Position numbers and translations under genes: made by a program
DNA from: Natronolimnobius baerhuensis
GTDB lineage: Archaea; Halobacteriota; Halobacteria; Halobacteriales; Natrialbaceae
Length of the DNA stretch: 64,000 bases
Reading direction: 5' to 3'
NCBI RefSeq assembly: GCF_002177135.1
Contig: NZ_MWPH01000001.1
Span: forward strand, 434,001-498,000
Shown: piece by piece, positions 16,522-54,777 of the stretch
Layout: every line of letters begins with the position of its first letter
How positions within the stretch are numbered: position 1 is the stretch's first letter
The notes under the pieces: model-generated
What the model saw: the letters and a program-made list of their open reading frames with translations, nothing else
What the model was told of the DNA's origin: nothing
Databases searched by the model: none

Positions 16522-16779
16522 CTAATGGTGCGTTTCAGCAGTTGTGCTGAAATGGTGGACGAGACACGCACTGGCGAGTTCACGAAACTGTTTCCACCAG
16601 CGTCGTGACACGAACGCACCGTCTCCTCGCGTGAGTCGAGAGTTACCCGTTTCACTCTGACGCCGTTGGCCGTCGCGTTCAGTATCCAACAGAGCGTTCC
16701 ACGCGTTCTGCAGTGACGAGAACTCACGATGGTTGATCAGCGGGTGAATCAGTTCGGGACGGAGGCACCACAGGTCCCG
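16522..16779 (-). pseudogene. IS5-type transposase C-terminal remnant
   Basis: The minus strand from about 16779 encodes a fragment with HPLINHREFSSLQNAWNALL and AFVSRRWWKQFRELASACLV followed by a histidine. This matches the C-terminal region of haloarchaeal IS5-group (ISH-type) transposases, where the WWKQFREL segment and the preceding catalytic-Glu helix are typical. The rest of the transposase and the terminal repeats are absent. The preserved part has diverged (ETGNSRLTRGDG in place of the expected NETVNS-type helix). It marks the left side of an accessory region. Confidence 0.65.
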
Positions 16780-16799
16780 TCGAAAAAAGTGACCCCCTG

Positions 16800-16985
16800 T
16801 TACTCGAGGTCGGAGCGAGCGCCTGGTGGGTCGGACGCCGGACTCGAGTCGGGGATGATTCGACAGCCACAGGGGGTGGCGTAGGCGTCGCCGGGGCCGA
16901 GGACGACGGTCATCGCCATCGGGTTGCCACAGGCCGGGCAGGTTCCGAGAGCCGATGCGTCGTCGGGGTCGTCCCCGTCGGTCAT
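16800..16985 (-). CDS. Small zinc-ribbon protein (61 aa)
   Basis: A 61-residue protein starting MTDGDDPDDASALGTCPACG at 16985; a longer in-frame start exists at 17027. CPACG is followed 20 residues later by CGCR, giving a CxxC/CxC zinc-binding set. The N- and C-terminal arms are acidic and disordered. Such tiny zinc proteins are abundant in haloarchaea and mostly unstudied. It lies between the transposase remnant and the structured RNA. Confidence 0.6.
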   Translation of the reverse strand: MTDGDDPDDASALGTCPACGNPMAMTVVLGPGDAYATPCGCRIIPDSSPASDPPGARSDLE

Positions 16986-17118
16986 CGCCCGTGCCCGGTC
17001 GTGGGATGGCTGCGAGGCTCGAGGCACTGTGTTCGCCTCTGATCGGCAACTGCGGTAGGTGGTAGTGTTGGTGCGACTCGAGAGCGCGGCGCTCGAGGTG
17101 TGCGATTCGACTGTCGTG

Positions 17119-17242
17119 CGGGATGTTTATATCCCGGTAGAATGAACGGAATCATGCTTCGGAATCCCTGGGTTGGGATTTGGAAGCCGTCTCGGGTGCT
17201 ACTACACCCGGGGCATTTCATTCATGCCCGGTTTGGCTTCCG
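17119..17242 (+). ncRNA. Candidate structured RNA: hairpins plus three-way junction, possible pseudoknot
   Basis: No good frame, but nested perfect complementarity. Hairpin A: CGGGAT (17119-17124) with ATCCCG (17131-17136). Hairpin B: AATCCC (17163-17168) with GGGATT (17175-17180). Outer stem: GGAAGCC (17182-17188) with GGCTTCC (17235-17241). Inside it two abutting hairpins: CGGGTG (17193-17198) with CACCCG (17205-17210), and GGGCAT (17211-17216) with ATGCCC (17224-17229). The last loop TTCATTC (17217-17223) is the exact complement of GAATGAA at 17140-17146, allowing a pseudoknot. G-U extensions (17162/17181, 17189/17234) favour the plus strand. A TTTATA box (17126-17131) lies in the loop of hairpin A; if it is the promoter, the RNA would start near 17155 and exclude hairpin A and GAATGAA. 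It resembles no riboswitch I can name. Confidence 0.55.
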
Positions 17243-17305
17243 GTTGCATTATTGACGTGATGTAACTTATATCTACTGTTACGGGGGTGGAATAGATGTC
17301 CGGTC

Positions 17306-17416
17306 GTGACGGCTGTGGCACTCAGACTGGCAGTCTACACCGTTGCCGTCATTTTCGGTGGCCTGCTCGAGCATGTGGTTCGAACAACCAGTTTGACGAT
17401 TCCGATGAACGATTGA
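17306..17416 (+). CDS. Possible small membrane peptide (36 aa)
   Basis: A GTG at 17306 opens MTAVALRLAVYTVAVIFGGL followed by LEHVVRTTSLTIPMND, a single hydrophobic span with a short polar tail. A TTATAT box lies at about 17268-17273. This is the only coding-looking segment between the structured RNA and the three-gene operon, and it contains the last native-style CTCGAG before the foreign stretch. It may be a fragment of a larger gene. The stretch 17417-17549 shows nothing. Confidence 0.3.
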   Translation: MTAVALRLAVYTVAVIFGGLLEHVVRTTSLTIPMND

Positions 17417-17549
17417 GCTGGTCGACCTGATGGGAGATCAGCAGGCTTTGTGGAACACTTCAATCGGTAATAAATTCTACTGTCTTGTTGTATACAGAGC
17501 GCATGTATTACAGTCAAGAATAAGCCGACCGACATAGCAACTAAGTAGT

Positions 17550-18050
17550 GTGTCTCTGATCCGGATCATCACACAAGCAGGGCCCGGGGGAACCGTAGTG
17601 ACTATTCTTGCCTACTTTACTGGAGAATACTGGTTTCCGAGTACCGCCAGAAACGAGTTAGTACTTGCAGCAGCAGTTTTCGGCTTCATATTTGGTCTGC
17701 TCTTGAAATTGCTCAGCAAGCAGGCAATATCCTTCCTTTCGTTTCCGATCATTGTCCGAGCGAAGAGAGAGATTGACAGAAAGAACAATCAAGGGCATTT
17801 TTATTTTGACAATGAAGATAAGAAAGAGGACTTCGACAAGTTTGACGGCCAAGTCTTCCAATATACCTGTTTATTCTATTCTGGTTTACTTGTTGCCACG
17901 ATATCCGGAATCCATGCTTTCCTGCTAACAGACCCACTGGCAACTCTCGGACTCCTCTTAATTACTTCTCTATCGACCATCATACTATGTGGTTTATCGA
18001 TTGTAAAAATACAAAATATTATATTAATGTCTCCCATAATGTTCGACTAG
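17550..18050 (+). CDS. Four-helix membrane protein of the accessory operon
   Basis: A 166-residue membrane protein with a GTG start at 17550 (MSLIRIITQAGPGGTVVTIL). Four hydrophobic segments are visible (about residues 12-28, 36-58, 103-125 and 131-157). Between the second and third lies a charged cytoplasmic-like loop, AKREIDRKNNQGHFYFDNED, rich in Lys and Asp. Base composition is clearly AT-richer than the chromosome. Its TAG stop touches the ATG of the SMC-like gene with no gap. No family is recognised. In this context it could be a membrane effector or anchor for the ATPase. A GAATAAG element near 17518 could be the TATA box of a leaderless transcript. Confidence 0.72.
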   Translation: MSLIRIITQAGPGGTVVTILAYFTGEYWFPSTARNELVLAAAVFGFIFGLLLKLLSKQAISFLSFPIIVRAKREIDRKNNQGHFYFDNEDKKEDFDKFDGQVFQYTCLFYSGLLVATISGIHAFLLTDPLATLGLLLITSLSTIILCGLSIVKIQNIILMSPIMFD

Positions 18051-19784
18051 ATGAAATTAGGCGAAATTCATTCTCGGGAATTTGCGAAAGAGGAGTACGG
18101 AGGATTCGAACATACGAATATTGAGGGCGAGAATCTGCTCATTCAGGGTGGCAATCGCACTGGGAAGACTCTCACATTCAACGCGATTCTGTACAATCTT
18201 CTTGGCCCACAAGAAACGATCGACCTGTCCACTGGACGGAACAATAACGTAAGCCTCGGATTCACCGATGGGGTCGAGTTCCGAAGAGGTAAGCTAGGTG
18301 CACAATTCAGGAAAGATGATCTCGAAAAGAGTGAAGATGAGGCACAGGAAGAACTCACCAACTGGTTAGCGGAAGATCTGTCCACGGAGGTCTCAAGTAC
18401 GGATCTGATCAAAAACCATTTCGTCCATACCCACATCGAACGAATGCCTCTTTCGGGGCTTTCGGAAGACCATCGGCTGGATCACATTCGTTCGGCAGTT
18501 GATCAAGATACCCAAGAGAGTATCGAGGAGACTGAGGAAGAAATCTCTCAACTGGAAGAACGAACCGCAGAGATCAAGTCGAGTCTACGCCGGAAGAAGG
18601 AGGATAAGCACGAGCGCGAGAACAATCTTCGTAGCGACGAAAACCAATTAGAGAAGTACCAACAAATAAAGTCTCTTGCAGAGTCCGGGAAACTTGAAGA
18701 CATTATTGAGACAATACAGTCTGATGAAGACCTTCAAGAAACACTCTCCGAGTTGTCTAAGAAGCAGGACTTCCTCCAGCGCAAGCAGAGAAGTAAGCGG
18801 AAGGATAAGAGGCAGTGGGAACGATACCGAGAGTCGGAGAGGAACGCCATCATCGCTGAAGCGGTCAACGACTTCGTCTGTCCTGCCTGTAGCGGCCACG
18901 TTGATACAGACTTAGCGGAGAGTCGCTTGGGGCGGTCTCGCTGCCCATTTTGTGCCGTCGACAGTCGTGGCGACGACCTAGAGGCGGATATCGACGAGAA
19001 GATTAGTCGTTCAGAAGAAGAGCTAGGAGAAATTGAGGAAGAACTGGAAGAAATCACATCTGAGCTAGAAGAAGTCACCGAAGAGATCGCCAATATTCGG
19101 GAGGAGCAACCCGAATTGGGTGATATCGACGGCCGGATTGAGCGAGTCATCCGGAATAACGAGTACGACTTCTCCACTATCCTCGAAGAAACCAAAAAGC
19201 AACTGGAACGCTATCAGTCGAGCATCAATGAGACCGAGAAGGAGATCTCGGAGCGAAAAACCGAGATTGGAGAACTGGAAGATGAATTAGAGTCCTCACA
19301 GGAACGTCTGGAGGAGGCTAAGGACGAGGTGGTAGAAATGCGGGAAGAGAGCATCAATGCTGAGATCAATGAGTTCTCCGAAGAGTGGCAAGAGGTTTTC
19401 GAGGAGATGGCCGGCGAGATCGGATTGGAGATCCAGATGACGCAAGATGGGGACATTGAGATCCCTGGATCTGAGGGGCCTCGAAAGTACGACCGAGCAG
19501 GAGACCTGAGCGATGCGGAAATCACCTTCATGAACATCTCGTTTGCAGTTGTGTATAACCGCTTCGTCCGGGAAGCAGGAGCGACTGAGTGGTCGACAAT
19601 CGTCTGCGATGAACCCTTCTCGAACCTCGACTCGGAAGGTCAAGAAAGCCTTCTTGAGTTCATCCAGTCATGTGATGAGCAGTTCATCTGTACGTCCTCC
19701 ACCGAAGAGATGCTGGAGGAATTCCCGAAGACTGGTGAGTTGACTCGACAGCGGATCCAGGCATCTCTCGGGAGGTACGCATAA
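18051..19784 (+). CDS. SMC/Rad50-like ATPase with central C4 zinc finger (archaeal SMC-related)
   Basis: A 577-residue ABC-type ATPase. Walker A GGNRTGKT is at residues 33-40. A signature-like segment DLSDAEITFMN is at 485-495. Walker B TIVCDEP is at 516-522 (D520, E521), with D-loop SNLD at 524-527. Two Glu/Arg/Lys-rich coiled coils (about 150-265 and 305-440) flank a zinc finger, C277-x2-C280 and C298-x2-C301. Rad50 has only one CxxC per monomer at this place, so this is not a canonical hook; it fits the archaea-specific SMC-related group. The arms are short. Such ATPases hold or sense DNA. It is the middle gene of a tight three-gene operon and has no CTCGAG, unlike native genes. Partner and effector are unknown. 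Confidence 0.85.
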   Translation: MKLGEIHSREFAKEEYGGFEHTNIEGENLLIQGGNRTGKTLTFNAILYNLLGPQETIDLSTGRNNNVSLGFTDGVEFRRGKLGAQFRKDDLEKSEDEAQEELTNWLAEDLSTEVSSTDLIKNHFVHTHIERMPLSGLSEDHRLDHIRSAVDQDTQESIEETEEEISQLEERTAEIKSSLRRKKEDKHERENNLRSDENQLEKYQQIKSLAESGKLEDIIETIQSDEDLQETLSELSKKQDFLQRKQRSKRKDKRQWERYRESERNAIIAEAVNDFVCPACSGHVDTDLAESRLGRSRCPFCAVDSRGDDLEADIDEKISRSEEELGEIEEELEEITSELEEVTEEIANIREEQPELGDIDGRIERVIRNNEYDFSTILEETKKQLERYQSSINETEKEISERKTEIGELEDELESSQERLEEAKDEVVEMREESINAEINEFSEEWQEVFEEMAGEIGLEIQMTQDGDIEIPGSEGPRKYDRAGDLSDAEITFMNISFAVVYNRFVREAGATEWSTIVCDEPFSNLDSEGQESLLEFIQSCDEQFICTSSTEEMLEEFPKTGELTRQRIQASLGRYA

Positions 19785-20227
19785 TGAAGGATAAAGAGGG
19801 GAAGAACCATCCCCACCTCCTCATGCTCGATGAGTTCGATGGAGAGATCGATGGGGAACTGAAGTACCAGAAAGTCCTTTACAAGTATCGGGTGAACGCA
19901 CTCGAAGACGATGATTGGAGTTTCACGAGGGAACGTTGGGGGCCGACCGACCCGGGTTTCACTGAGATCATGCAGTCACTGGATGACCTCGACCTCGCGG
20001 AACTGGAAGAGGACGACCGAATGCACATCTTCCGACTCACAGACACTGGAGAAGAGGTGGCCGATGGGCTCAAACGGGGACTCAGTAAGCTAGATCCCGG
20101 GTTTAGTCCCCGGATTCAGACGATATTGGGTATCGCGGAATCCGACAAGGACCGCTCCGGGTCGGAGATTGTTGAAGACGAGATCGTGCAGAACGCGAAG
20201 GAGGAGACAGAGCAGTCACAGGTGTAG
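19784..20227 (+). CDS. Winged-helix-like accessory protein of the SMC-like operon
   Basis: A 147-residue acidic protein whose ATG shares one base with the stop of the ATPase gene (TAATG), so it is translationally coupled. HPHLLMLDEFDGEIDGELKY followed by QKVLYKYRV, then WGPTDPGFTEIMQSLDDLDL and FRLTDTGEEVADGLKRGLSK, gives a helix-helix-strand order like winged-helix proteins of the YwgA/PadR-like kind. The last 30 residues are charged and probably disordered. It may be a DNA-binding adaptor or a regulator of the operon. Composition is AT-rich like the two genes before it. Assignment to a family is tentative. Confidence 0.65.
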   Translation: MKDKEGKNHPHLLMLDEFDGEIDGELKYQKVLYKYRVNALEDDDWSFTRERWGPTDPGFTEIMQSLDDLDLAELEEDDRMHIFRLTDTGEEVADGLKRGLSKLDPGFSPRIQTILGIAESDKDRSGSEIVEDEIVQNAKEETEQSQV

Positions 20228-53443: not shown

Positions 53444-54724
53444 ATGGCGAAACAGGTCGTTACGCGCACCTACACTGCTTCCATCAGGAACCAGCCACAG
53501 GTGTCTGACGACCTCGATTCGCTCGGGTTCGCTGCCAGTAAACTCTGGAACGTCGGACGGTGGACGTGCAGTCGAGTCTGGGATGAAATCGACTATATCC
53601 CAGAACACGACGAACTCACCGCCTACCTCAAGAGTCACGAACGCTACGATGACCTGCATTCTCAGTCAAGTCAGCGAGTCCTTCAAGAACTCGCTGAGGC
53701 GTTCAACGGCTGGTACGGCAAACGACGCAACGGAGACACACGAGCAAACTCGCCCGGCTACCGCAAACACGGTGACGACCACCCACGAAGCACGGTCACG
53801 TTCAAAGCCGCTGGCTTCAAACTCGACACCCAGTACAACCGTGTTCGACTCTCCCAAGGCTCAAACCTCAAGGACTACTGGTCGGACTTCATCCTCTGTG
53901 AGTACCAGACGCAGCCCGATGTTGACCTCTCTGCCGTGGAGAACGTCCAGCAAGTGCGGGCCGTCTGGACTGGCGAGGAGTGGGAGTTGCACTTCGTGTG
54001 CAACGTCGAGATTGAGGTGGCCGACTCTCGCGGCGAGAAGACCGTCGGTGTTGATCTCGGTATCAACAACTTCGCCGCGCTCGCCTACGAGGACGGCCAC
54101 AGTGAACTGTACCCACTCAACTCCCTGAAGCAAGACGACTACTACTTCAGCAAGCGACTCGCTCAGTGTGACGACTCCGACTCCAAGCAAGCCACGCGAT
54201 TGAGCCACAAGAAATCGGAGCGTCGCACACACTACTTCCACACACTCTCAAAACACATCGTTGAACGATGTGTGGACGAGGGAGTGGGAACCATCGTGGT
54301 GGGCGATCTCTCCGGTGTCCGCGAGGACGAGGAAAACGGCAAGTCGAAGAACTGGGGCACACACGGCAACCTTGACTTGCACTCGTGGGCATTCGACCGG
54401 TTCACCAATCTGCTCGAATATAAGGCCAAGATGGAAGGCATCACGGTTGAGGAGGTATCTGAGCGTGATACGTCAAAGTCGTGTTCGTGCTGTGGACGAA
54501 AGCGTGACGCGAACCGTGTTGAACGCGGGTTGTACGTGTGCGATGACTGCGGGACGGTGGCGAACGCTGATGTGAACGGTGCTGAGAACATTCGACAAAA
54601 AGTATCTCCGAATCTTGCCTTCGATGGGGGAGATAGGAGTAACGGCTGGTTGGCACAGCCATCGACGTACCTGTTTGACAAGGAAACTGGCGCATTCGCG
54701 CCTCAAGAACGGGTCACGTCGTAA
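53444..54724 (+). CDS. tnpB: TnpB / IS1341-type OrfB RNA-guided nuclease-like protein
   Basis: A 426-residue TnpB-family protein from ATG 53444. The RuvC parts are GVDLGINN (first Asp, D204), TIVVGDLSG (the RuvC-II position where Glu is expected is Gly 287) and ANADVNGAENI (last Asp, D376). A zinc ribbon CSCC (C347, C350) and CDDC (C366, C369) sits between. The sequence SERDTSK just before the ribbon holds E340, a possible replacement acid. TnpB proteins cleave DNA guided by an RNA made from the element's right end. Whether this copy cleaves is uncertain given G287. A homing role for the element is inferred from the family. Confidence 0.92.
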   Translation: MAKQVVTRTYTASIRNQPQVSDDLDSLGFAASKLWNVGRWTCSRVWDEIDYIPEHDELTAYLKSHERYDDLHSQSSQRVLQELAEAFNGWYGKRRNGDTRANSPGYRKHGDDHPRSTVTFKAAGFKLDTQYNRVRLSQGSNLKDYWSDFILCEYQTQPDVDLSAVENVQQVRAVWTGEEWELHFVCNVEIEVADSRGEKTVGVDLGINNFAALAYEDGHSELYPLNSLKQDDYYFSKRLAQCDDSDSKQATRLSHKKSERRTHYFHTLSKHIVERCVDEGVGTIVVGDLSGVREDEENGKSKNWGTHGNLDLHSWAFDRFTNLLEYKAKMEGITVEEVSERDTSKSCSCCGRKRDANRVERGLYVCDDCGTVANADVNGAENIRQKVSPNLAFDGGDRSNGWLAQPSTYLFDKETGAFAPQERVTS

Positions 54725-54750
54725 ACCACAATATCCCAATGCGGTCGGGA

Positions 54751-54777
54751 ATCCTCGCGCTTCAGCGCGGGGAGGAT
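54751..54777 (+). ncRNA. Right-end hairpin, presumed 3' part of the TnpB guide (omega) RNA
   Basis: ATCCT (54751-54755) pairs with AGGAT (54773-54777) and CGCGC (54756-54760) with GCGCG (54765-54769), loop TTCA, with GGG (54770-54772) bulged. By analogy with other TnpB elements the guide RNA would end beyond this hairpin and its guide would be the flank starting at 54783 (CGGTAGAGGTAGACGAGCCA). The 5' end of such an RNA cannot be placed. Confidence 0.55.

Follow-up and report, generated by a model that had tools for sequence, protein, structure and literature searches.

In archaea, the fluoride riboswitch of Thermococcus kodakarensis is the only natural riboswitch to have been shown experimentally (PMC8241225). 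Cases of archaeal cis-regulatory RNA number a handful, and predicted leaders include one that precedes the halobacterial gene for ribosomal protein S15 (PMC7247131). Here we describe an RNA element in the window, by which we mean the whole 64,000-nucleotide stretch of Natronolimnobius baerhuensis DNA that was analyzed. From comparison of its homologs, it is probably a minus-strand mRNA leader carrying a translational switch, free of any Shine–Dalgarno sequence, at the AUG. Like the fluoride riboswitch, it lies in an archaeal 5′ leader and presumably acts on translation, but it has another architecture, precedes other genes, and gives no Rfam match to that riboswitch. With the S15 leader it shares detection by covariation as a cis-regulatory leader in Halobacteria. 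It differs in being multicopy, in having an alternative helix at the AUG, and in the genes that it precedes: no ribosomal protein was recognized among the ORFs read behind its copies (nine of them with Pfam).

Bacterial translational riboswitches offer a further comparison. In them, too, the gene under control has a leader that opens with a structured sensor domain, and one strand is common to P1 and to a helix beside the translation start. Whereas that helix masks a Shine–Dalgarno sequence in bacteria, the haloarchaeal leader has none and the helix abuts the AUG itself. The haloarchaeal leader also differs in being archaeal, in having many small unrelated targets, and in reaching its target in Natrialbaceae through a coupled leader ORF. 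Stop/start overlaps are known to couple translation by termination–reinitiation in archaea and bacteria (PMC6728339). Our locus has in common with such coupled leader-peptide control that the leader ORF and the main gene overlap at ATGA, with the difference that initiation of the leader ORF would here itself be gated by an RNA switch. By analogy, then, the leader resembles a translational riboswitch, a name that would require a ligand.

A conserved fold on the minus strand

The first-pass annotation had placed five helices at 17119–17242, and all of them are present there (Table 1). On both strands, none of 200 dinucleotide shuffles folds as well as the region 17100–17260 itself, which has z-scores of −4.14 (plus) and −4.59 (minus). 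The proposed outer stem enclosing two abutting hairpins also holds; in plus-strand letters, GGAAGCC at 17182–17188 pairs with GGCTTCC at 17235–17241 around hairpins at 17193–17210 and 17211–17229. Read along the minus strand, the order is the P1 5′ strand, H3, H2, the central strand, upper H1, the pre-AUG strand, and the AUG.

Table 1. Positions of the leader elements and of the two ORFs behind them
Feature	Position	Strand	Remarks
TATA box of leader promoter (GATATAAG on minus strand)	17266..17273	−	Kept as ACTTATATCTACTG on the plus strand in 67 units
P1, 5′ strand (GGAAGCC in RNA)	17235..17241	−	Pairs with central strand; double changes in 8/9 P1 pairs
Hairpin H3 (GGGCAU ... AUGCCC; loop 17217–17223)	17211..17229	−	Double changes in 5/5 modeled pairs
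Hairpin H2 (CGGGUG ... CACCCG)	17193..17210	−	98.6% paired cells; double changes in 4/6 pairs
Central switch strand (GGCUUCC in RNA)	17182..17188	−	Common to P1 and lower H1; three-strand covariation
Upper H1 (AAUCCC ... GGGAUU)	17163..17180	−	Fits both states; stem of at least 4 bp in 141/161 units
Pre-AUG strand (GAAGC)	17156..17160	−	Alternative partner of central strand; three-strand covariation
Leader ORF, 57 codons, MIPFILPGYKHPARQSNRT...	16982..17155	−	Begins at AUG after H1; stop overlaps zinc-ribbon start (ATGA 16982–16985)
Hairpin A (CGGGAU AUAAAC AUCCCG)	17119..17136	−	Inside leader ORF; palindrome kept through sequence change
Small acidic zinc-ribbon protein, 61 aa (CPACG...PCGC)	16800..16985	−	Relative on same strand behind 138/167 leader copies

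Across homologs, 94% of the cells in P1, H2, and H3 are paired, and both sides have changed in 17 of 20 pairs. Their covariation score is 0.307; sliding the partners gives no more than 0.091, and shuffling gives 0.106. Homolog covariation thus argues strongly for the outer stem, the two hairpins, and the junction. Upper H1 averages 5.25 bp of stem compared with 3.41 bp in shuffled sequence (161 units), and hairpin A reappears as GAGAC..GTCTC in several lineages and as GGGTAA..TTACCC in L062, the fifth copy in the window's own genome. Compensatory changes, which the annotation had named as supporting evidence, are found in the stems; the pseudoknot that it drew between the loop at 17217–17223 and 17140–17146 is not conserved. 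That complementarity exists in the window, yet it averages 2.3 bases across 164 units, below the 2.63 of shuffled partners, and reaches 6 bases or more in only 9 of them. By this comparison, the pseudoknot would at best be a property of a small subgroup.

In keeping with the suggestion of a structured RNA outside known families, Rfam 15 (4227 families) gave no match in 16900–17600 at the gathering score, and none to the structured part at E ≤10. A literature search, whose scope left most subscription journals and preprints aside, found no description of the leader family. The leader is apparently a member of an undescribed RNA family of salt-loving archaea. Elsewhere in the window, 54600–54773 (+) is a full-length match to Rfam RF02656 sot0042 (191.8 bits).

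G-U-compatible extensions had been taken to favor the plus strand, and our first covariance model (R1) was built on that strand. It found the family, but G-U and A-C cells were about even, at 62:58, in the alignment of closer relatives. The matter was settled once distant members were added and the alignment was redone on the minus strand: 92 diverse relatives show 76 G-U against 23 A-C cells, a ratio with some lean toward minus because the alignment was built with a minus-strand model, and one with which promoter and genes agree. A small zinc-ribbon ORF follows the structure on the minus strand in 138 of 167 units and on the plus strand in none of the 167. The TATA box lies ∼32 nt before the first helix in the window and in distant relatives alike; of 31 distant units, 24 have a TATA-like hexamer 28–33 nt ahead of P1, most of them at 31–32. 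The G-U/A-C balance, the same-strand downstream ORFs, and the constant TATA distance together place the RNA on the minus strand, as the 5′ leader of a small gene there, with a predicted transcription start at about 17243, at the foot of P1. In the distant copies L341, L343, and L348, palindromes such as CCAATTGCTACGTAGCAATTGG upstream of P1 overlap the position at which the leader promoter is predicted to start transcription, which suggests a repressor site.

Competing helices at the start codon

Two complementary partners are available to the central strand: the 5′ strand, with which it makes P1, and the strand directly before the AUG, with which it makes lower H1. Since both helices use the central strand, they are mutually exclusive. 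The 5′, central, and pre-AUG strands change in concert: they read GGAAGCC/GGCUUCC/GAAGCC in most Natrialbaceae, GGAAAC/GGUUUC/GAAACC in one genus, and GGAAGA/GGUCUUCC/GAAGACC in another family, and in the fifth own-genome copy the alternative helix has become GGAUUC/GAAUCC. A central/pre-AUG helix of at least 5 bp is kept in 20 of the 22 members whose central strand lacks GCTTC, compared with 3.3 on average and 10 at most when partners are drawn at random (1000 shuffles). A Shine–Dalgarno-like 5-mer before the AUG is absent from 161 of 166 units and present in the other five.

For the window leader, the P1 fold is calculated at −53.4 kcal/mol and the lower-H1 fold at −50.9 kcal/mol. P1 is the favored fold, and the lower-H1 state has a predicted probability of 0.06 in a model that does not represent the salt-rich cytoplasm. 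According to this folding model, the alternative helix could be rarely populated, since P1 and lower H1 differ by only 5–7 bp and P1 forms first. The locus has what is expected of a riboswitch in two respects: a structured, conserved domain in the 5′ leader of its gene, as seen in the covariation and the same-strand ORFs directly behind, and a mutually exclusive expression-platform helix, as seen in the three-strand covariation and the close energies.

The mechanism that we propose draws on what comparison establishes about the strand, the helices, their mutual exclusion, the AUG position, the stop/start overlap, and the promoter spacing. Transcription would begin at the foot of P1, and the 5′ domain, in which P1 closes H3 and H2, would act as the sensor. 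In the ON state, which we infer to be the P1 state, the 5′ strand would hold the central strand in P1 and leave the bases before the AUG single-stranded. In the OFF state, the central strand would be released from P1 and would instead form lower H1 with the bases that immediately precede the AUG, so that the start is blocked. The position of the two competing helices, immediately ahead of the start codon, makes an on/off switch for small zinc-binding proteins probable. Switching would then control translation, and a metabolite, an ion, the protein product, or temperature may set the balance between P1 and lower H1.

The leader ORF and the genes behind it

In Natrialbaceae, the gate would control initiation of the leader ORF, and the zinc-ribbon gene would follow by translational coupling because the leader ORF stop overlaps its start. 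The overlap, counted in 135 units with GTG included among the start codons, is ATGA in 73, and the offset is −5 or −8 in 53. Of 74 non-redundant units, 70 allow the AUG frame to be tested, and in 68 of them it runs to a zinc-ribbon start; the corresponding counts for the other two frames are 9/46 and 11/32. A constant frame relationship does not explain this overlap, since the zinc-ribbon ORF stands in different frames with respect to the AUG. The leader ORF is open over 28 codons in 163 of 164 units. We regard the contrast in openness between frames over all 28 codons as overstated, because the other frames hold stops inside the conserved hairpin. Over codons 15–28 alone, the AUG frame is open in 163 of the 164 units and the other frames in 94 and 149; as the contrast shrinks there, the stop/start overlap is the better evidence for the ORF. 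In Natrialbaceae, the encoded peptide has the pattern MI-x-Y/F-ILPGYK..., with hairpin A near the ORF start. Its conservation at the protein level was unconvincing: within the hairpin part, third codon positions show as much conservation as the first and second, so the peptide sequence itself may be unimportant.

In many distant relatives, by comparison, the gate would act on the main ORF directly, and the AUG after the structure is often the start of that ORF. The ORFs found there encode SWIM-like zinc fingers, CQVCG proteins, and others, with no Pfam family at cut-off among the nine that were searched. The zinc-ribbon protein of the window likewise belongs to no Pfam or NCBIfam family at cut-off. 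At the fifth own-genome copy, the AUG opens a real-looking acidic ORF. Where the zinc-ribbon ORF is missing, a different small ORF rich in cysteine is often present on the leader strand, and ∼10 copies have no recognized gene behind the leader. Overall, the downstream genes encode many unrelated small proteins and give no clear pointer to a ligand or trigger. In-frame stops in the zinc-ribbon matches of genome G035 were considered as marks of pseudogenes, an idea that we dropped since they look like natural C-terminal ends. Genome G012 has a cluster of zinc-ribbon domain ORFs at C1:1446493–1458537, several in tandem, none of them leader-paired among the matches listed.

Distribution and other readings of the locus

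The window's own genome (G000; 3.9 Mb in eight contigs) contains three further copies by DNA search, at 74%–88% identity to the window copy, and the same search found copies in many genomes of its family, Natrialbaceae. The R1 model detected five copies in G000 and matches in 80 Natrialbaceae genomes; the highest number, 32, was reached in one 3.9-Mb chromosome. Plasmids carry some of the copies. An exact-match scan for a 19-base pattern in 257 billion bases located the core motif in Natrialba, Natrinema, Halovivax, Halopiger, Halostagnicola, Natronobiforma, Natronorubrum, and relatives, all Natrialbaceae; scattered bacterial contigs in that scan are taken as chance matches. A second model (R2), built on the minus strand, extended the element to further halobacterial families, with matches in 153 of 391 genomes at E ≤0.001, those near the limit in other families having been checked singly only in part. 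Outside Natrialbaceae, copies are mostly single, except in one genus, where three genomes have 12–13 each. Among 295 genomes drawn from across the phylum, all 17 with matches belong to the window's own order. No gene family recurs beside most copies, and no match to the element was found in phages.

It is an even call whether these copies make up a large riboswitch-like class of Halobacteria, with tens of copies per genome and a three-strand gate on a Shine–Dalgarno-free AUG, serving dispersed small zinc-binding proteins and, in one family, acting through a coupled leader ORF. If so, hundreds of examples, many in cultured haloarchaea, would be added to the few known archaeal cis-regulatory RNAs, and one shared control signal would link a multicopy set of unnamed small zinc-ribbon proteins. 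Because the design is clear and mutable, consisting of three short strands and an AUG, the translation and regulation of Shine–Dalgarno-free haloarchaeal leaders are directly testable.

A leader that is structured without switching would account for part of these observations. In such a leader, the 5′ helix would merely protect the mRNA or position the ribosome on an AUG that lacks a Shine–Dalgarno-like motif, and P1 indeed starts at the predicted 5′ end and is the favored fold in the window. We consider this unlikely, since a passive stem leaves the tracking of the central strand by the pre-AUG strand in those 20 of 22 members unexplained. Less probable still is a sense/antisense pair, as in type I toxin–antitoxin or plasmid copy control, in which TTTATAT at 17126–17132 would give a plus-strand RNA from ∼17154, antisense to the leader. 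Most Natrialbaceae copies have this TTTATAT almost unchanged, ∼26 bp before a conserved AATCATG. It is absent, however, from L036, L037, and L062, of which L036 and L062 keep hairpin A, and such loss is not what a conserved antisense promoter over a toxin leader would show. Moreover, the distant units examined have their TATA before P1 on the leader strand, and the encoded proteins, being soluble acidic zinc ribbons, do not resemble type I toxins. As the TATA is lost in some lineages, we also rejected the palindromic element as a promoter for plus-strand RNA in the general case; the TATA-like element that the annotation offered as a competing reading of this hairpin is instead a loop inside the minus-strand leader ORF.

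That annotation had further proposed a stand-alone plus-strand RNA, a regulator of the SMC-like (Lamassu-like) operon 308 bp away, or the folded end of a lost mobile element. Both plus-strand proposals now seem very improbable, despite the good fold on that strand too and the nearness of the operon: the G-U/A-C balance favors minus, the RNA belongs to the small gene on its opposite flank, conservation between copies does not extend to the SMC-like genes or other operon-side neighbors, and homology ends at 17300, short of the operon. A mobile-element end or remnant, such as a MITE-like repeat, has similarly little to recommend it, even though the copies are dispersed and sometimes plasmid-borne. 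Also in its favor, the window and its closest relative, copy L038 (5627–6151) in sister genome G001, share a 523-bp gene unit (16778–17300; 91%) and nothing else, both flanks being unrelated. At the edges of this block, however, neither terminal inverted repeats nor a target duplication was seen by eye, and no IS match was seen. The identity of the strong own-genome copies to the window copy is too low for recent duplicates; promoter, switch, AUG, and gene are kept in nearly all units; and the element is single-copy in most other families. The minus-strand switch leader is thus the reading that we prefer.

Several observations concern the surroundings and the copies themselves. The operon next to the leader, three genes at 17550–20227 (+), includes an LmuB-like (Lamassu SMC-like) ATPase at 18051–19784 (PADLOC PDLC03859, E 1.3e-19) and is probably a defense operon. 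A 7.6-kb IMG/VR contig has the 19-base core motif at L365 4460–4478, its viral origin and leader identity both being putative. Genome G021 carries four leader copies on one strand within 4.3 kb (C1:1569980–1574258, including L084, L167, and L168). In genome G406, several contigs (among C56, C25, C8, C9, C49, C60, and C2) start ∼3–215 bases from a leader copy, so near-identical leader repeats probably broke the assembly, and recent spread of the leader in that genus is possible.
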